Shown: in pieces, positions 4,113 to 64,000 of the stretch
Layout of the letters: every line of letters starts with the position of its first letter
Numbering within the stretch: the stretch's first letter is position 1
NCBI GenBank assembly: GCA_016649715.1
Contig: JAENXC010000009.1
Span: 1 to 64,000, forward strand
DNA from: Flavobacteriaceae bacterium
GTDB lineage: Bacteria; Bacteroidota; Bacteroidia; Flavobacteriales; Flavobacteriaceae
Length of the DNA: 64,000 nt
Direction of reading: 5' to 3'
Made by a program: the position numbers and the translations under genes
The notes under the pieces: model-generated
Databases searched by the model: none
Told to the model about the DNA's origin: nothing
The model's input: only the letters and a program-made list of their open reading frames with translations

Positions 4113-5189
4113 ATGCCAGAACACAAATTTATCGTTTGTAGCTATTCCCATAATTTATCCTCCGGAATCGTTTCTTGGCAATCGCCCAGCAACATAGCTT
4201 TGGTGAAATATTGGGGAAAGTATGGCGAGCAAATGCCAATGAATCCTTCTATCAGTTTTACTTTGAATAATTGCAATACCAAAACTTCTGTGTCTTTTAC
4301 GAAGAAAAGTTCTGAAGGATTCGAATTTGAAGTTTTTCTCGATGGAAAAAGAGAGGTTTCCTTTGATCCGAAAATCCGGAAATTTTTTGAAAGGATTGAA
4401 ACATATTTACCGTTTCTGAAAGAATTTAAATTTAAAATTGAAACTTCCAACAGTTTTCCGCACAGTAGCGGCATAGCTTCCTCCGCCAGCGGAATGAGTG
4501 CATTGGCGCTTTGTTTGATGGATATGGAAAGACAGATGCAATCTTCAATTACGGAGGATTATTTTAAAGAAAAAGCGTCATTTCTTGCACGTTTGGGCTC
4601 TGGCAGCGCTTGCCGAAGTTTGGAGGGACCATTAATTGTTTGGGGCGAACATATAGAAATTGATGGCAGTAGCAATCTCTTCGGAATAAAATATCCCTTT
4701 CAAGTTCATAAGAATTTTCAGCATTATCAAGACACTATTTTACTGGTCGATAAAGGCGAAAAACAAGTGAGCAGCACCCTTGGCCACGATCTGATGCTGG
4801 ACCATCCTTTTGCCGAACAGCGCTTTAGGCAGGCAAAGGAGAATCTCTCAAAATTGATTCCTGTTTTTAAAAACGGCATTCTTTCCGAATTTATAAGAAT
4901 AGTGGAAAGTGAAGCATTATCACTTCACGCAATGATGATGACCTCCATGCCCTATTTCATATTGATGAAACCAAACACCTTGGAAATAATCAACCGCATT
5001 TGGAAGTTTAGGGAAGAAAAGGGAAGCAACGTTTGCTTTACGTTGGATGCGGGCGCCAATGTGCACGTGCTATATCCAAAATCTGAAAAGAAGACCGTTT
5101 CAAAATTTATTGAAAAGGAACTTTTACAATTCTGTAAGAATGGGGAGTTTATTGTTGATGAGGTTGGTTTGGAAGCCTTTAAAATTTAA
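4113..5189 (+). CDS. mvaD: Diphosphomevalonate decarboxylase
   Basis: A 358-residue GHMP-superfamily enzyme that converts mevalonate diphosphate to isopentenyl diphosphate using ATP, the last step of the mevalonate pathway. The signature PSNIALVKYWGK near the N-terminus and the glycine/serine-rich ATP loop HSSGIASSASG are present, as is RLGSGSACRS, with the serine/arginine region expected for the decarboxylase. Length is slightly above the family's 320-350 residues. The ATG at 4113 is chosen over 4053 because a promoter-like box overlaps the longer form. It converges on the CHAT gene; mevalonate kinase is 5 kb to the right. Confidence 0.92.
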   Translation: MPEHKFIVCSYSHNLSSGIVSWQSPSNIALVKYWGKYGEQMPMNPSISFTLNNCNTKTSVSFTKKSSEGFEFEVFLDGKREVSFDPKIRKFFERIETYLPFLKEFKFKIETSNSFPHSSGIASSASGMSALALCLMDMERQMQSSITEDYFKEKASFLARLGSGSACRSLEGPLIVWGEHIEIDGSSNLFGIKYPFQVHKNFQHYQDTILLVDKGEKQVSSTLGHDLMLDHPFAEQRFRQAKENLSKLIPVFKNGILSEFIRIVESEALSLHAMMMTSMPYFILMKPNTLEIINRIWKFREEKGSNVCFTLDAGANVHVLYPKSEKKTVSKFIEKELLQFCKNGEFIVDEVGLEAFKI

Positions 5190-50972: not shown

Positions 50973-51911
50973 ATGAAAACATCCCTAAAAAAAGAAATCA
51001 CCGCCGCTGCCAAAAACTACATGGACGCGCACAAAATGCGCCAATCAGATTTTGGAAACAAAGTAGGCCTTAACAGCTCACTCCTTACCCACATTTTCCG
51101 CTTAAACTCAAACTTTACAATTCCAACGGGCGGAGACAAGGACACCGTGATAGCCGACAAGTACTTTATGAAAATGGCCAACTTCATTGGCTTCGAACTT
51201 ACAAAGTCCTATTGGGACATAAAGGCAACCCCACAATTAACAGCAATCTTGGCAACGTTGGAAGACGCCAAGCAGCACGGAACCACCGCCGTCATCGTTG
51301 GCGAAACAGGCGCAGGAAAAACCCACGCCCTACGCCTTTTCCAACGCAAAAACCCAATGGACACCCTTATAGTTACTGTAGGCTCGAATGACAACATCAC
51401 TGACCTAATAGAACGCATCTGCGATGTGCTGCACATAACCTCCGGCAAAACCCGAAGCCGCAAGCTTCGCAATATTTACTGGCGTTTGCAGGAACTTCGC
51501 GAAAACGGCCATAACCCGCAGTTAATATTGGACGAGGCGGAGTATATGAAACAACCCGCCCTTTCCGCAATAAAGGAAATCTATGACCACGTAAACGACC
51601 ACGCAAGCCTCGTGCTCGTGGGCACCCAGCAACTCATCGAGAATATAGATCAGTTGCGAAAAAAGAACCGCCCCGGAATGCCGCAGTTTTACCGCCGTAT
51701 CAAATTCGGGATTAGAACACTTCCAGCCGTTGACCGCCGCTACAGCCTGTTTATTGACGGCCTTAGCAAAGAAGTGGTGCAGTACCTACAAATCATTTGC
51801 GATAACTACGGTGAACTGCATGACGTACTGGTTCCTGTTCGAAGGGAAGCCGAAAGGACCGAGCAGGAAATAACCGTGAACCTAATAAAAACAGTGTTAA
51901 ACCTAAGATAG
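50973..51911 (+). CDS. MuB-like AAA ATPase (transposition target protein)
   Basis: 312 residues, same length as MuB. N-terminal Cro-like helix-turn-helix (QSDFGNKVGLNSSLLTHIFR) then an AAA domain with Walker A GETGAGKT at residues 110-117 and Walker B with Asp187 (LILDEAEYMK). It should pick target DNA and stimulate the transposase. Gene order transposase, small protein, MuB-like matches Mu. Confidence 0.92.
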   Translation: MKTSLKKEITAAAKNYMDAHKMRQSDFGNKVGLNSSLLTHIFRLNSNFTIPTGGDKDTVIADKYFMKMANFIGFELTKSYWDIKATPQLTAILATLEDAKQHGTTAVIVGETGAGKTHALRLFQRKNPMDTLIVTVGSNDNITDLIERICDVLHITSGKTRSRKLRNIYWRLQELRENGHNPQLILDEAEYMKQPALSAIKEIYDHVNDHASLVLVGTQQLIENIDQLRKKNRPGMPQFYRRIKFGIRTLPAVDRRYSLFIDGLSKEVVQYLQIICDNYGELHDVLVPVRREAERTEQEITVNLIKTVLNLR

Positions 51912-53236: not shown

Positions 53237-53494
53237 ATGAAAAAAGTACACAGCAAGGTTGGCGAGGCCACCGAAACCCCACCAACACCGTTCCTCCACT
53301 TCAAGTTAGAAATAATTGAGGAAAAAGCCAACATCGAACTCCACGGAAAAGTGAAACAAATGGTGCAGGCCATTTGTAGCGCAATGGAACAAAAGCCGGA
53401 CTTAGCCCAAGTTCTAACAACGGCGGTCTTTGAATACAGCCAAGACAATGAATTAATACTAACAATCCCTCAAACCCAACAAGAAAATGGATAA
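53237..53494 (+). CDS. Hypothetical phage protein
   Basis: 85 residues with EKANIELHGKVKQMVQAICSAMEQKPDLAQVLTTA in the centre, an alpha/beta pattern. Overlaps the DUF3164 gene by 8 bp. No family recognised. Confidence 0.65.
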   Translation: MKKVHSKVGEATETPPTPFLHFKLEIIEEKANIELHGKVKQMVQAICSAMEQKPDLAQVLTTAVFEYSQDNELILTIPQTQQENG

Positions 53495-54176
53495 TGCAAT
53501 CACCCTCGACAAATTAACGCCCGAGCAAAGGGCACAGCTGGCCGCCGAGTACCAAGCAGAACAGGAAGCGGCAAAAAAGAAACAAGCAAACGACCGCGTG
53601 GCCTACAAACAACTTTCCACGGAAATGGTACCGCCCATTTTCAGCATCCTCGAAAAGCAGAGCGAACAGCTGGCTGTAACTAAGCAACGGGTTTTTGAGG
53701 CCGCGCGCGACCTTATCAAAATGAAGGAAGACGCATACGGCGTAAAGGAAGGCCAGCAGAGCCACACCTTCAGCAATGAAAAAGGGACGCAGTCCATCAC
53801 CATTGGTTACCGCGTTGTGGACGGTTGGGATGACACCCTTCCGGCCGGAATGGAAAAGGTAAAGAAATTTATTGAAGGCCGCGCAAAGGACAAATACACC
53901 CAAGAACTGGTTGACGGTATCAACCTGCTCCTGAAAAAGGATAAGAACGGAAACCTAAAAAGTAGCCGCATACTCGAGCTACAGCAATGGGCTTCAAAAA
54001 TTGGCAATAGCCTTTTGATGGACGGCGTGGCCATAATAATGGATGCCTACAAGCCGGTTAAAACCTGCTACTTCATAGATGCACGATTTGTGGACGGCAC
54101 TGGTAAGATGCAAAGCCTCCCGCTAAGCATTTCGGCGGTAGATTTTCCAATGGGAACTGAAATAAACTTCCTGTAA
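53487..54176 (+). CDS. DUF3164 family protein
   Basis: 229 residues. The family pattern is visible: an N-terminal Ala/Glu-rich helix, REARxLIxMKEDxY-like RDLIKMKEDAYGV, then SHTFSNEKGTQSITIGYRVVDGWDD, DGINLLLKKDKNGNLKSSRI and YFIDARF. DUF3164 is typical of Mu-like early regions, role unknown. Overlaps both neighbours (8 bp upstream, 1 bp downstream). Confidence 0.85.
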   Translation: MDNAITLDKLTPEQRAQLAAEYQAEQEAAKKKQANDRVAYKQLSTEMVPPIFSILEKQSEQLAVTKQRVFEAARDLIKMKEDAYGVKEGQQSHTFSNEKGTQSITIGYRVVDGWDDTLPAGMEKVKKFIEGRAKDKYTQELVDGINLLLKKDKNGNLKSSRILELQQWASKIGNSLLMDGVAIIMDAYKPVKTCYFIDARFVDGTGKMQSLPLSISAVDFPMGTEINFL

Positions 54177-54397: not shown

Positions 54398-54706
54398 ATG
54401 AGTGAAATCGCTAATAAACCCGAAACCCCAAAAACAGACCGCCGAAAGCTGTGGTCATTCTTTGACCCAAAGATAAATAAGCACATGTATATCCTGAGCC
54501 TTTGCATCCAGTACGGATGGAGCAAGACACACCCGCGCACAGGGCGAGAGGTGGCCGATCTTGGCAAACTGGACAGATGGCTGCGCGGCAAACGCAAAAG
54601 CGGCCAAAGCCCCGTTAAAAAGCCTTTAAAGGAAATGGAAAAGGGTGAACTAAGCCAAGTAATAACCGCACTTGAAAATATGGTGCTCAAAGCAAATAGC
54701 AAATGA
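54398..54706 (+). CDS. GemA-like (Mu gp16/DUF1018-like) protein
   Basis: 102 residues. The KLWSFFDPKINKHMYILSLCIQYGW start and the final SPVKKPLKEMEKGELSQVITALENMV resemble the ends of Mu GemA, which modulates host gene expression. Position in the early operon, two genes after DUF3164, also fits. Sequence match is partial, so the call is moderate. Overlaps the next gene by 4 bp. Confidence 0.55.
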   Translation: MSEIANKPETPKTDRRKLWSFFDPKINKHMYILSLCIQYGWSKTHPRTGREVADLGKLDRWLRGKRKSGQSPVKKPLKEMEKGELSQVITALENMVLKANSK

Positions 54707-54894
54707 CAATTTTCACAAATTACGCCATTGGCGATATTGTTTACTTGGTCTGTGATACCAACGCAACTCCCAGAATCATTCTTGAGATTCTTATAAAGCC
54801 AAGTGGTATTGAATATTGCCTCGGCAATGGACTGGACAATAACTGGAACTACGAAATAGAATTTTCCAAAAAAACAAAAACAAAAAATGCCTGA
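54703..54894 (+). CDS. Hypothetical phage protein
   Basis: 63 residues, beta-rich (YAIGDIVYLVCDTNATPRIILEILI), possibly an SH3-like or KOW-like barrel. Overlaps the upstream gene by 4 bp and the next by 8 bp. Confidence 0.6.
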   Translation: MTIFTNYAIGDIVYLVCDTNATPRIILEILIKPSGIEYCLGNGLDNNWNYEIEFSKKTKTKNA

Positions 54895-54988
54895 AATAAT
54901 AATAATGGCCGGCGCAATAGTGCTACTGGCGTGGATATTCCAACCCGACAATAATGATGACAACGAAGACGGATTGTCCCCAATGTAA
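54887..54988 (+). CDS. 33-residue single-TM micro-protein
   Basis: ATG at 54887, TAA at 54986-54988. Hydrophobic MPEIIIMAGAIVLLAWIFQ then an acidic tail NNDDNEDGLSP. It overlaps the upstream gene by 8 bp and the zinc-ribbon gene by 32 bp. Single TM with acidic tail; no function known. Confidence 0.5.
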   Translation: MPEIIIMAGAIVLLAWIFQPDNNDDNEDGLSPM

Positions 54989-55106
54989 CAAGTTGGTAGC
55001 CCCAATACTAAAAACCACGGGCGGTTCCGTAAACTGTGAGGAAACCGCCCTCTTTTGCCCAACGTGCAAAACCCAATTAACCGAACCCGAAATGGATTGT
55101 AGATAA
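54957..55106 (+). CDS. Zinc-ribbon micro-protein (49 residues)
   Basis: ATG at 54957 (an in-frame ATG also at 54954), TAA at 55104-55106. Two Cys-x2-Cys pairs, CPQC and CPTC, 25 residues apart, form a typical zinc ribbon. A third and fourth Cys flank them. Nucleic-acid or protein binding is likely. It overlaps the TM micro-gene in another frame. Confidence 0.6.
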   Translation: MTTKTDCPQCNKLVAPILKTTGGSVNCEETALFCPTCKTQLTEPEMDCR

Positions 55107-55118
55107 CAACTTTAAACT

Positions 55119-55370
55119 ATGGAAAATACAGAAATACATTACGAAATGACCATCTCATGCGTCCTTGCCCAATGGAATGAAAAGATTACTGGTTACAGAA
55201 CCCGAGATGGCGAGGTTCCGGAACCTCAAACAGACGCCGAGGCTTTAGACGTCGCAAAAAAAACTATTGAACGGTTTAATTCAACGCTGCGTCCCGGTGA
55301 AATAGAAAGAGAGTTACGGTGCGTACAACGCGTCGAAACCAAAGTAATTGATTTAATGGAATATAACTAA
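55119..55370 (+). CDS. Hypothetical phage protein
   Basis: 83 residues, mostly helical with EALDVAKKTIERFNSTLRPGEIERELRCV. No family recognised. Ten bp before the acyl carrier protein gene. Confidence 0.65.
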   Translation: MENTEIHYEMTISCVLAQWNEKITGYRTRDGEVPEPQTDAEALDVAKKTIERFNSTLRPGEIERELRCVQRVETKVIDLMEYN

Positions 55371-55380
55371 ACAAACCCTT

Positions 55381-55647
55381 ATGAAAACAACAAAATACGA
55401 TTTAGAACAATTTATCTACCACCACATTGTCGATGAATATAATGTTCACCCCGCCACGGTTTCCAAAGACGCAAAGCTTCAAGATGAACTTGGCATTGAC
55501 TCTTTGGACAAAGTAGAAATAAGCTGCGATATTGAAAAAAAGTTCAGCGTAACCCTCGATGATGAAGCCATAGATAACGCCACCACTTTCGGTGAATTAG
55601 TGGATGCCGCTTTTTCCTCATTTCAAAATACTGAAGATGAAAATTAA
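55381..55647 (+). CDS. Phage-encoded acyl carrier protein
   Basis: 88 residues. The phosphopantetheine site GIDSLDKVEI is clear, with Ser41 as the attachment residue, and the following IEKKFSVTLDDEAIDNATTFGELVDA matches ACP helices II-III. It is shorter at the N-terminus than chromosomal ACPs only slightly, and the acidic character is kept. It sits in the phage early operon, overlapping the MazG-like gene by 11 bp. The role, perhaps cofactor diversion, lipid modification or altered ACP-dependent enzymes, is unknown. Confidence 0.88.
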   Translation: MKTTKYDLEQFIYHHIVDEYNVHPATVSKDAKLQDELGIDSLDKVEISCDIEKKFSVTLDDEAIDNATTFGELVDAAFSSFQNTEDEN

Positions 55648-56011
55648 CGAACTATCAAAACAAATTCACGCCAACAACGTGCAAAAAGGTTTTTACGAAG
55701 GCGAAAAGAACATAGGCGAAATGCTTGCACTTGTTCATTCAGAAGTAAGCGAGGCTTTGGAGTGTGACCGAAAAGAAGAATATTTTAAGAAATATCAATA
55801 CCCATTATCAAACCTTAAACAATTACCGGACTTAACCTTTCAAATTCAGTTTTTTAATGACGTTAAGGACACTTTTGAAGATGAATTGGCGGATATAATG
55901 ATTCGAGTAATGGCTTTGGCCGCTTTTAAGAATATTGACTTAGAGTCGCATATATCCGCAAAAATGCGCTACAACTCACTTCGTGAATTTAAGCACGGCA
56001 AGAAGTACTAA
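55637..56011 (+). CDS. MazG-like NTP pyrophosphohydrolase
   Basis: 124 residues from the ATG at 55637 (MKINELSKQIHANN); the frame to 55604 lies inside the ACP gene. The metal-binding helices EMLALVHSEVSEALE and DELADIMIRVMALAAF carry the E-x2-x-E and D/E-x2-D pattern of all-alpha NTP pyrophosphohydrolases, which clear altered or alarmone nucleotides. Overlaps ACP by 11 bp. Confidence 0.75.
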   Translation: MKINELSKQIHANNVQKGFYEGEKNIGEMLALVHSEVSEALECDRKEEYFKKYQYPLSNLKQLPDLTFQIQFFNDVKDTFEDELADIMIRVMALAAFKNIDLESHISAKMRYNSLREFKHGKKY

Positions 56012-56013
56012 CA

Positions 56014-56583
56014 ATGACCCCAAAAACAACCCAATACCATATAATCTCCCACAAAACAGATGTGACGCTAAAGCTTTCCTACCGCGGCGGTTCGTTCTTT
56101 CGGATCGAGCGCGTAAAAGGGAAGATTACAGAATTACACATCAAACATCTGGGGAAGCTTATCCCCCTAAATGAGTCTGACCTTCAGGCGCATTACGCAA
56201 GCTTCCCAGATGTTACTTTAAAACCCTTGGTAAAGGAGAAAAGCCAATTCAGCAAGTTCAATGATGCGTGGTTTTTGTTTTATCAAAACTATGCCGGCAT
56301 TCCGCCAAAGTTTACCGGAACGGATGCCAATCACTTAAAACAAATCATTGCCTACCTAACCCAGATTGAAGGCTCTGAGAGCGGCGCGCTCGACCTTTGG
56401 TTTGTGCTGCTGCACAACTGGAAAAACCTTGGCGAATTTCATCAGAAAAACACCGATCTAAAATACATTAATTCATCTTTAAACAAGATTTTAAATGAAC
56501 TTAAAACCCGCAACAACGACCCCGCAGACGCATTCAAAAATGCTATGCAGAGCGACAGCGCAAGAAACTTTAAGTTTAAGTAA
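56014..56583 (+). CDS. Hypothetical phage protein
   Basis: 189 residues. A two-part protein: beta-rich start (YHIISHKTDVTLKLSYRGGSFFRIERV) then a helical half (YLTQIEGSESGALDLWFVLLHNWKNL). No family recognised; it may be involved in replication by position. The downstream gene starts before this one ends. Confidence 0.65.
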   Translation: MTPKTTQYHIISHKTDVTLKLSYRGGSFFRIERVKGKITELHIKHLGKLIPLNESDLQAHYASFPDVTLKPLVKEKSQFSKFNDAWFLFYQNYAGIPPKFTGTDANHLKQIIAYLTQIEGSESGALDLWFVLLHNWKNLGEFHQKNTDLKYINSSLNKILNELKTRNNDPADAFKNAMQSDSARNFKFK

Positions 56584-61323: not shown

Positions 61324-61852
61324 CTTTCAACTTGTTTTTGAGGATGTCGTTATATTTTATCATATTGTCCGCCACCACATTATTTATTTCAGAATTCACG
61401 CGTTCGTGCCAGCCAATGAATTGTTTCTGCTCCACTTTCATCTTTGTGCCTGCTTTCATAAGTGCCATATACTTCCACTTTTCGGCCTCCTTGGTCAATT
61501 TATCAACGCGGGTTTTCCCGCCGCCTCCGCTTGCGCCTCCGCTGGCTTTGTAATACATAGCCCAAAAGAAGCTTTTCATTGCCTCAGTAACTTCCATTTC
61601 GCCGCCTTCGTTGTGGATGGTGGCGTAGGGCAAGGAACTGCGCCAGTTAATTTGGCCACCACTCACGCGGTGGTTTTCGCTTTTTCGCAATTTACCACTT
61701 CGCAACATTTGGCTGCCGCGGCTATTGGCGTGCTTTTCCGTTGGCCACTTCTGGTCAAAAAAGGCTTTCCGTTCAAAGTTGCGGTCAAACTCCTCAGTGA
61801 GCGAGACGGCAGTTTCATTGATGATATTTTTAACAAGGTCCTCTAAATTCAT
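61307..61852 (-). CDS. Phage virion morphogenesis protein (gpG-like)
   Basis: 181 residues. The FERKAFFDQKWPTEKH and MLRSGKLRKSENHRVSGGQINWRSSLPYATIHNEGGEM stretches fit Mu-type virion morphogenesis proteins (gpG family; tail completion). It overlaps both neighbours (17 bp with the tail gene, 4 bp with the head gene). Confidence 0.8.
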   Translation of the reverse strand: MNLEDLVKNIINETAVSLTEEFDRNFERKAFFDQKWPTEKHANSRGSQMLRSGKLRKSENHRVSGGQINWRSSLPYATIHNEGGEMEVTEAMKSFFWAMYYKASGGASGGGGKTRVDKLTKEAEKWKYMALMKAGTKMKVEQKQFIGWHERVNSEINNVVADNMIKYNDILKNKLKDERSN

Positions 61853-62691
61853 TTTTTAATCTTGTTTGCCCCAGCTACTTTTCGGTATGGATGACCAGGA
61901 GGAAAAACAACCTTTTCCTTCCCGGGATTAAAGCGGAAAATTTCCAATTGGTTCTTTCCGTTTTTGCCTTCTTTAGTGGTTGCCTTTTCGCCATTTGTAT
62001 TTGAAGCTTCACTATCGCTCTGCTCATATTTTCGCGCTAACACTTCCACAGTGGTACAACGGCACCTCCAACCATTCGGAGGAAAGTATTTATCCCAAAA
62101 CGGATCTTCTTTTGGAAGTGTGGTTTCGTCAAGTAATTGGTGGCTTGCGCGAACCTTGTCATCCTTCGCGGTTCTGTACTGCAATAGAAAGTTTTCTCCG
62201 CCTTTAAAGTTATCCCAACGCTCGGCCATCAAAACACTACCAACGCCAAAATCATACTCGGCCTCGAGATAATTCTGGTTATAGTCCGTTTTGATTTTTG
62301 AAACATCATTGCTGAAGGTTTCAAAGCTTTTTATTTTCTTGTTGTCATCCAGTAACAATTGTGAGGCCTCAAATAGTTCAGAATGTGTGCGCAGCTGTGA
62401 AAAATAGAAAATATCATTTTCCAACGCGTTTAGCATTTCCTTTGAAAGCTTGTTATCTTCCAGCGAACCGTTTAAGATGCCATTGGTGGCTCTAATTACA
62501 TCGCGGTATTCCTTCACTTTTATCAAATCCTCAGGCTTGTAACTTCCTGTTTTATGAAGTTTTTTAAAGGCTTTTTCAACGGTCGTTAAAAGTCCTTTAA
62601 ATTTCCCTTTAAGTGAAAGGGTAAAGGTTTCGCCCTGATGATTGCAGTCGCCACATTTGCAGTCGTACAAATGTGTCAAGCGGTTATGCAA
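61849..62691 (-). CDS. Minor head protein (Mu gpF-like)
   Basis: 280 residues. The C-terminal RTAKDDKVRASHQLLDETTLP, DPFWDKYFPPNGWRCRCTTVEVLA is the classical gpF (SPP1 gp7-like) motif with two Cys, and HLYDCKCGDCNHQG opens the protein. Helps build the head around the portal. Overlaps the morphogenesis gene by 4 bp. Confidence 0.92.
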   Translation of the reverse strand: MHNRLTHLYDCKCGDCNHQGETFTLSLKGKFKGLLTTVEKAFKKLHKTGSYKPEDLIKVKEYRDVIRATNGILNGSLEDNKLSKEMLNALENDIFYFSQLRTHSELFEASQLLLDDNKKIKSFETFSNDVSKIKTDYNQNYLEAEYDFGVGSVLMAERWDNFKGGENFLLQYRTAKDDKVRASHQLLDETTLPKEDPFWDKYFPPNGWRCRCTTVEVLARKYEQSDSEASNTNGEKATTKEGKNGKNQLEIFRFNPGKEKVVFPPGHPYRKVAGANKIKK

Positions 62692-62714: not shown

Positions 62715-63959
62715 TTAGACGAAAAAATCGGCTCCGAATGTTAAGTTTTGGTTGGGCAGCACTTTATCGCCGGTAACTTTAACGCCAAACTTTTCCTCAA
62801 GCCATTTGTCATCTACATTCTTTCCGGCTGTTAAAAGGTCTTTTGTAAAAGTGAACAGCTGGCCGATATCTTCGGTTTGTTCGTAGGCATAAACTAAATC
62901 GCCTTTTAAAACACCAAGAGCCTGTAAAGCCGGAATAACGTCACTGTTCCAGTATTTTTCAATAACGTCAAGGTCGTTATCAATCAATACTTGCAGCATA
63001 TCCTGCGCGCTTTCGTCTTTGGAGCGGGAACCGTTCTTTGTATCCTGCCCAATAATGGCACCGGTAATTAATAACGAAATTTCATTATTACACAAGTTGA
63101 TCAACTTGCTATAAACCTCACCATCTTGAACGGCTGCCTTTGCCCACTCAAAGCTTTCAGATTCGTCAATAATAAACCAAGCCGCTGCGCCCATATCGCG
63201 CATCATTCTTTCTGCTCGATTAACCATTACCGGGTCTTGTGTGTTAGTTTTCATTACCCGCGGTGGTATTCCATTGATTTCGCACAGTTCACTCCAACAA
63301 GACTCCGCAAATCGCTTAAAAAGTACGTGCGGAACCGCCGAGTTAAACAATCCCTCATTTCCTTTTTCGTGAAACTCTAAAAGCCAAGTTCCAAATTCTG
63401 AAGCTTCGCGGTAAGGTATCTTTTTGTCTTCAGTATAGTCTGGGTAAAAGTAGCCGTTAACAGGGTCTAAGTTTTCACGAGGAATTATGTCCACTTGCAA
63501 CTCGCCTAAATCATCAAACGAGAATTCCACAAGCGAAACAATGAGGTAATTACTGTCCAGAATATGGCGGTTAATTTCTTTAGTGAAAAGCGCATTTTGT
63601 AAAAGCGCTGTTTGGTCCTTGTCAACTTCACCTGATGGTTTTTTAAGTACTGGACGTTCAGCCAATGCTTTTAAAAGACGGTTTTTATATTGACTTTGCA
63701 AAAGCGCATCCATCCGCACCTCGTCAAACAGCTGTTGAATTTTAAACCACTTCGGGTTTTCCAAAAGCTTCGTCATTTTCTGCCCCTGCCCCCATGTGGC
63801 AATATCCTGCCTTGTTTTTGCCACAGATTTTGGCGCAATGATGGCGCGGTAGCCTGTACCTTTACCTTTGGCTTTTTTAACTTTGCCGTCCGCGCTTGCG
63901 AGGTTCACCTTTTGTTGGGGTATAAAACCCACTTGAACGTGTTTTTTCTTCTTTGCCAT
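62715..63959 (-). CDS. Phage portal protein (DUF935, Mu gp29-like)
   Basis: 414 residues from the ATG at 63959 (MAKKKKHVQVGFIPQQ); the frame goes to 63998, at the edge of the window, but the internal ATG is preferred. DUF935 features: an N-terminal basic segment, WFKIQQLFDEVRMDALLQSQYKNRLLKALAE, RFAESCWSELCEINGIPPRVM and MMRDMGAAAWFIIDESESFEW. It forms the portal through which DNA enters the head. Upstream of it, outside the window, terminase genes are expected. Confidence 0.9.
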   Translation of the reverse strand: MAKKKKHVQVGFIPQQKVNLASADGKVKKAKGKGTGYRAIIAPKSVAKTRQDIATWGQGQKMTKLLENPKWFKIQQLFDEVRMDALLQSQYKNRLLKALAERPVLKKPSGEVDKDQTALLQNALFTKEINRHILDSNYLIVSLVEFSFDDLGELQVDIIPRENLDPVNGYFYPDYTEDKKIPYREASEFGTWLLEFHEKGNEGLFNSAVPHVLFKRFAESCWSELCEINGIPPRVMKTNTQDPVMVNRAERMMRDMGAAAWFIIDESESFEWAKAAVQDGEVYSKLINLCNNEISLLITGAIIGQDTKNGSRSKDESAQDMLQVLIDNDLDVIEKYWNSDVIPALQALGVLKGDLVYAYEQTEDIGQLFTFTKDLLTAGKNVDDKWLEEKFGVKVTGDKVLPNQNLTFGADFFV

Positions 63960-64000
63960 CTTAATCGATATCGTGGTTAAACTTTTTTCTACTTCCAAAG

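Follow-up and report, generated by a model that had tools for sequence, protein, structure and literature searches.

An acyl carrier protein gene in the early operon of a Mu-like prophage of a Flavobacteriaceae bacterium is probably an accessory gene independent of its MazG-type neighbour

The early operon of a Mu-like transposable prophage in a Flavobacteriaceae bacterium contains a gene for an acyl carrier protein (ACP) that, judging from comparison with related loci, is probably a functional and independent cargo gene. It would be an accessory gene in a variable segment of this operon, and the MazG-type gene that it overlaps would be a second cargo gene, separately acquired and adjoining the first by chance. 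The present case contributes a Mu-like prophage with an ACP, and one relative that keeps the gene; phage ACPs as such have been published before (PMC5463345, PMC8224337, PMC10152775, PMC11705849, PMC3037559). They occur in many phages, and the available portions of this literature call their function unclear (PMC5463345) or only predict it. Separating the ACP from MazG confines the question to the ACP and removes an attractive lead, a joint action of the two proteins on stringent signalling.

The window, that is, the whole 64-kb stretch of DNA analysed, holds the following phage landmarks.

48588..50660, plus strand: transposase in the MuA-like position (weak rve match of 16.9 bits, under its cut-off; homologs in 91 of 96 surveyed loci)
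50973..51911, plus strand: MuB-like AAA ATPase (AAA_22, 59.8 bits; relatives in other prophages)
53487..54176, plus strand: DUF3164 protein (41.2 bits against a cut-off of 23.7)
61849..62691, minus strand: Mu F-like head protein (Phage_Mu_F, 39.4 bits against a cut-off of 29.6)
62715..63998, minus strand: Mu-type portal protein (Portal_Mu, 198 bits; the listed start is 2 bases from the window end and the true start may lie beyond it)

The early operon runs rightward, with a divergent ORF upstream that we take for a putative repressor, followed by the transposase, the MuB-like ATPase, a second ATPase and the DUF3164 gene and then by the ACP and MazG-type genes. The late genes, encoding the Mu portal, the Mu F protein and a minor tail or tape measure protein, run on past the window. 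The arrangement agrees with that described for fF4-like transposable prophages of Bacteroidetes (PMC7761591). The combination of a transposase, a MuB-type ATPase, a Mu-type portal and an F protein is that of a Mu-like transposable phage; the Mu-like surroundings attributed to the ACP and MazG-type genes in the preliminary description are thus borne out by the portal, the head protein and the ATPase with its prophage relatives. Further along the same contig, some 18.8-20 kb beyond the window (L166, 18839-19968), we observed two adjoining ORFs in different frames. One matches the ABC-type ATPases (Pfam ABC_tran, 29.5 bits, over the cut-off of 25) and the other is GNAT acetyltransferase-like (24.9 against 27 and 20.2 against 20.7 bits, both under cut-off). 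Their position near the right end of the prophage recalls that of the Mom DNA-modification gene of Mu.

Related loci were surveyed in both directions, found from MazG and from MuB and scanned for ACP and MazG. The MuB search matched 4 of 397 family genomes (own genome included), and in IMG/VR a single query gave 14 loci, with an ACP in 1 of the 14 records. An alignment search with MuB extended this to 57 viral loci (the earlier 14 included) and 38 genome loci, hence 95 MuB-related loci with 86 distinct MuB proteins; 85 of the loci (76 distinct) reach at least 8 kb past MuB. The surveyed loci are stretches and not whole prophages, and absences apply to the stretch read. An ACP was found in 1 of the 95, in locus L058, which is also the nearest relative (MuB 84% identical); its ACP gene (4865-5125) occupies the same place in the operon and its product is 76% identical at the amino acid level. 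A scan of IMG/VR with the single ACP sequence recovered no relative, as did one with DUF3164, and a scan with the alignment of the two phage ACPs returned only the L058 contig again; as a control for sensitivity, a profile trained without these two ACPs still recovered both. Within the family, 189 of 199 genomes matched the ACP, and no phage copy was present among the 29 listed matches that were read as loci (L006-L034), 28 of which were AcpP-like and one (L013) of another ACP type.

The ACP gene is located in a segment of the operon whose content differs between relatives:

54398..54706, plus strand: predicted ORF, 102 aa, left edge of the variable segment (g54398; homologs in 31 of 96 surveyed loci)
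54954..55106, plus strand: cysteine-rich ORF, 50 aa (similar ORFs in 6 of 96 surveyed loci by BLAST; no Pfam cut-off reached)
55119..55370, plus strand: ORF of 83 aa directly upstream of the ACP gene (g55119; adjoins the ACP gene in L058 too, 72% identity; no Pfam match)
55381..55647, plus strand: ACP, 88 aa (Pfam and PHROG match; Ser41 in GIDSLD)
55637..56011, plus strand: MazG-type nucleotide pyrophosphohydrolase, 124 aa, EXXE/EXXD intact, probably a separate cargo gene (assigned by PHROG, motif and predicted fold)
56014..56583, plus strand: predicted ORF, 189 aa, right edge of the variable segment (g56014; homologs in 17 of 96 surveyed loci)

Homologs of both edges were recognised in 13 of the 95 loci (12 after dropping L152, whose MuB is the same as that of L102), and what lies between them varies from locus to locus: little, small cysteine-rich proteins, a thioredoxin-like protein, a DnaQ-like protein or an ACP. 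By eye, we noted a thioredoxin-like protein in L059 (5827-6108), DnaQ-like exonucleases in L098 (6300-6857), L099 (6177-6734) and L158 (13956-14579), and more small cysteine-rich ORFs than the six loci given by BLAST. MazG genes are also found at differing places: in a Neptunitalea prophage (L077) MazG likewise lies downstream of the g54398 homolog, and in L049, an additional Mu-like locus obtained by searching with MazG, it precedes the transposase. From these differing positions and the changing content of the segment it follows that both genes behave as cargo. The ORF upstream of the ACP gene was found only together with an ACP (1 of 1), a co-occurrence that says little because four other genes (g53030, g53237, g57522 and g58012) are likewise confined to this nearest relative.

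The assignment of the ACP rests on a Pfam PP-binding match (PF00550, 34.4 bits against a cut-off of 20.8) and on the PHROG family phrog_5934 'acyl carrier protein' (49.4 bits), which PHROGs classes as moron/auxiliary metabolic gene. The phosphopantetheine-accepting serine of the DSL motif is present in both phage ACPs, and the serine and its neighbourhood are invariant between them. The best match among solved structures by sequence is an ACP (6lvt, E 4.8e-10); the AlphaFold model, computed with an alignment of 2 sequences, has a pLDDT of 52, too low for use in judging the four-helix fold. With Pfam PP-binding, an acidic character (pI 4.19 versus 4.05 for the host AcpP) and the helix II start DSLDxVE, the protein resembles bacterial AcpP; however, it is only 29-32% identical to host AcpP and does not reach the AcpP equivalog TIGR00517 (41.5 versus 70.45 bits), and it is therefore not filed as the AcpP of fatty acid synthesis. 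The host genome has three other PP-binding matches and one phosphopantetheinyl transferase match. In both phage ACPs helix II begins with DSLDKVE, as in AcpP, and goes on with ISC, the position at which 30 of the 32 sampled ACPs have LIM and two have LVV. In E. coli the corresponding positions (LVM) are important for contacts with SpoT, FabA, FabZ and PlsX, and mutating them weakened contacts with enzymes of fatty acid synthesis while the mutants still grew, according to the available text of that study (PMC3340395). The ISC residues hint at a narrowed or changed set of partners for the phage ACP, and ordinary service in fatty acid synthesis may be poor.

The preferred reading is that the ACP would be expressed early from the operon, that the apo-protein would receive its phosphopantetheine from the host phosphopantetheinyl transferase, and that the holo-ACP would then take part in some of the host's acyl-ACP exchange, supplementing or redirecting acyl flux in favour of the phage. 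This specific mechanism is tentative, and we would sooner expect its details to be wrong than right; towards the explanation as a whole, comprising a functional ACP cargo gene, an independent MazG and a role in acyl flux, we lean slightly. A different possibility, which we consider rather unlikely, is that the ACP works as a decoy or regulator that uses up phosphopantetheine or CoA, or blocks one ACP-binding host protein, with no acyl shuttling at all. Such a role would suit the absence of a visible fatty acid synthesis gene from the segment in both the window and L058, and also the recognition residues of helix II, which differ from those of the host AcpP in both phages, but the intact serine and the acidic character suit a working carrier equally well.

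That the ACP gene does something for its carrier is suggested by its divergence from the L058 gene. By the NG86 method dN was 0.157 and dS 1.02, with a dN/dS of 0.155, and YN00 gave a ratio of 0.151 at a dS of 2.51, so that, with dS near saturation, dN/dS is only a rough figure. It falls within the range of the neighbouring genes: among 12 other genes compared by NG86, 11 lay between 0.07 and 0.26 and the remaining one, 50 codons long, at about 1. This one pair with its near-saturated dS suggests purifying selection on the ACP. Compared with 32 sampled ACPs, of which 30 share at least 90% identity with host AcpP, the protein reached 32-39% identity, and from this low identity to AcpP-like ACPs it follows that the phage gene is no recent copy of host acpP. 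We therefore regard it as improbable that the ACP gene is a neutral passenger, a captured bacterial gene drifting in the prophage with no function; the rarity of the gene (1 of 95 related loci) and the turnover of the segment would agree with a passenger, whereas the open and conserved reading frame, the low dN/dS and the distance to the sampled ACPs speak against it. Decayed host DNA was rejected as well, the gene being intact and conserved in L058. The earlier view that the ACP is functional and not decayed host DNA accordingly holds as regards its intactness, its distinctness from the host's own ACPs and its retention in one related phage, but not where it leaned on functional coupling with MazG. 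More elaborate still, and very improbable, is a dedicated phage carrier with ISC-changed partners that would hand acyl or aminoacyl groups to a phage enzyme, for example the GNAT-type ORF, outside fatty acid synthesis.

The product of the overlapping gene was assigned to the MazG type by its PHROG match, its motifs and its predicted fold. It is under both Pfam cut-offs (MazG and MazG-like, 14.1 versus 22 and 18.5 versus 27 bits), has no match in NCBIfam and, by sequence, finds among solved structures only two unrelated chains and no MazG. The PHROG family 'pyrophosphatase' matches at 113 bits, and E36xxE39 and E83xxD86 are invariant in all 15 aligned MazG sequences (that of the window included); we take EXXE and EXXD to be the metal-binding motif of MazG. 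The predicted structure (pLDDT 90.1) has the all-alpha NTP-PPase fold, and its best PDB match in Foldseek is iMazG (2q73, probability 1.00, TM 0.75 by target), with an E value of only 5.4e-3 and no PDB match at 0.001 or better. An alternative start at 55604 would lengthen the protein to 135 aa, while the relatives align from the ATG at 55637. Matches to this protein occur in 196 of 50,697 phage records. The enzyme would act separately from the ACP, hydrolysing what are presumably (deoxy)nucleotides during replication.

The 11-bp overlap between the ACP ORF (55381-55647) and the MazG-type ORF (55637-56011) was confirmed. Overlapping junctions are ordinary in this early operon (11 of 29), and the overlap is thus no sign of a special bond. 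A search with MazG matched 2 of 395 genomes of the order, the window's own and a second one (G509), and 14 loci in IMG/VR with 51-67% identity. None of these 14 viral records contained an ACP, and when 15 MazG records were searched the one match was G509, whose ACPs lie on contigs other than that of its MazG. Among the 95 MuB-related loci, a close MazG was present in one (L129, Neptunitalea chrysea, 61% identity), and ACP and MazG together in none; a single weak MazG-type match in L103 (E 0.0084, 15.8 bits) was left out of the close-MazG count. The Mu-like loci with a close MazG, the Neptunitalea prophage and L049, had no ACP in the stretches read (21 kb for Neptunitalea). Conversely, MazG was absent from the whole 25.8-kb contig of L058, in which a different ORF lacking a Pfam match begins 4 bp after the ACP gene. 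A separate observation is a MazG-type gene (36%) near a homolog (36%) of the window ORF 54703-54894 in another bacterium of the same order (L036, 1252-1815 and 2570-2770). The ACP-MazG pair, proposed earlier as a functional couple to be sought in related prophages, was therefore absent from every related locus examined, and a conserved pair was rejected. Searched by title and start of abstract, the open literature, a scope mostly outside subscription journals, likewise gave no report of such a pair.

Barely credible, finally, is the earlier suggestion that ACP and MazG act jointly, for example on stringent signalling via SpoT or Rel: the genes adjoin and overlap in one operon and E. coli ACP binds SpoT (PMC3340395), but the pair recurs in no relative examined, overlaps are common at early junctions, SpoT is described as confined to beta- and gammaproteobacteria and as contacted through helix II LVM, where the phage ACP has ISC (PMC3340395), the host genome gives one match in a search restricted to the RelA/SpoT synthetase domain PF04607, and a purified cyanophage MazG shows, in the available text, a preference for dGTP and dCTP, with no binding or hydrolysis of (p)ppGpp (PMC6850273). 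For Flavobacteria the listed enzyme is Rel, in some of them together with a small hydrolase (PMC3153485, as far as accessible).

Among known systems, phage fF4 of Flavobacterium columnare and related Bacteroidetes prophages share with this prophage the transposase, one or two ATPases, DUF3164 and a Mu-type portal; in the main text of that paper neither 'acyl carrier' nor 'MazG' occurs (PMC7761591). Phage MazG proteins (PHROG 9236/3301, cyanophage MazG and S-2L MazG) are alike in EXXE/EXXD and the all-helical fold, whereas the window protein has a long stretch between the two motifs and stays under the Pfam MazG cut-offs. Host AcpP matched 74 of 50,697 phage records, a number of which are short, lack annotation and may be bacterial; two candidates, MT837021 and MT838921, were dropped as relatives of the phage ACP, the host AcpP matching them better (55.8% and 50.7%) and the records being unverified and unannotated. 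The phages of PHROG 5934, namely Cellulophaga phage Nekkels_1 (L168), Olleya phage Harreka_1 (L169), Flavobacterium phage FL-1 (L170) and Prochlorococcus phage P-HM2, encode a small ACP with the DSL serine as found here and have no annotated fatty acid synthesis gene in the stretches opened, but all four are assigned to other taxa. With the ACPs of the three flavobacterial phages the window ACP shares 22-33% identity, and it differs by ISC in helix II. In each of these three the ACP gene, annotated in FL-1 only as hypothetical, is followed by a different ORF of unknown type. Considered as possible MazG partners, these ORFs were rejected for want of a MazG match, and no MazG lay within ~4 kb of the three ACP genes. 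Erythrobacter phage R6L also has an ACP in its genome (PMC5463345, in the part available). In P-HM2 the ACP gene and mazG are not adjacent within 3 kb, and mazG is given as core to all 16 cyanophages compared in the accessible text of PMC3037559; phages with both genes, non-adjacent, therefore have precedent. Cyanophages of the P-HM2 type additionally have an ACP synthase, shared by P-HM2 and a co-isolated phage (same source), and three putative Rhodobacteraceae prophages are described with the arrangement fabG-acpP-fabF (PMC8224337, available portion), unlike the solo ACP gene of the Mu-like prophage presented here.
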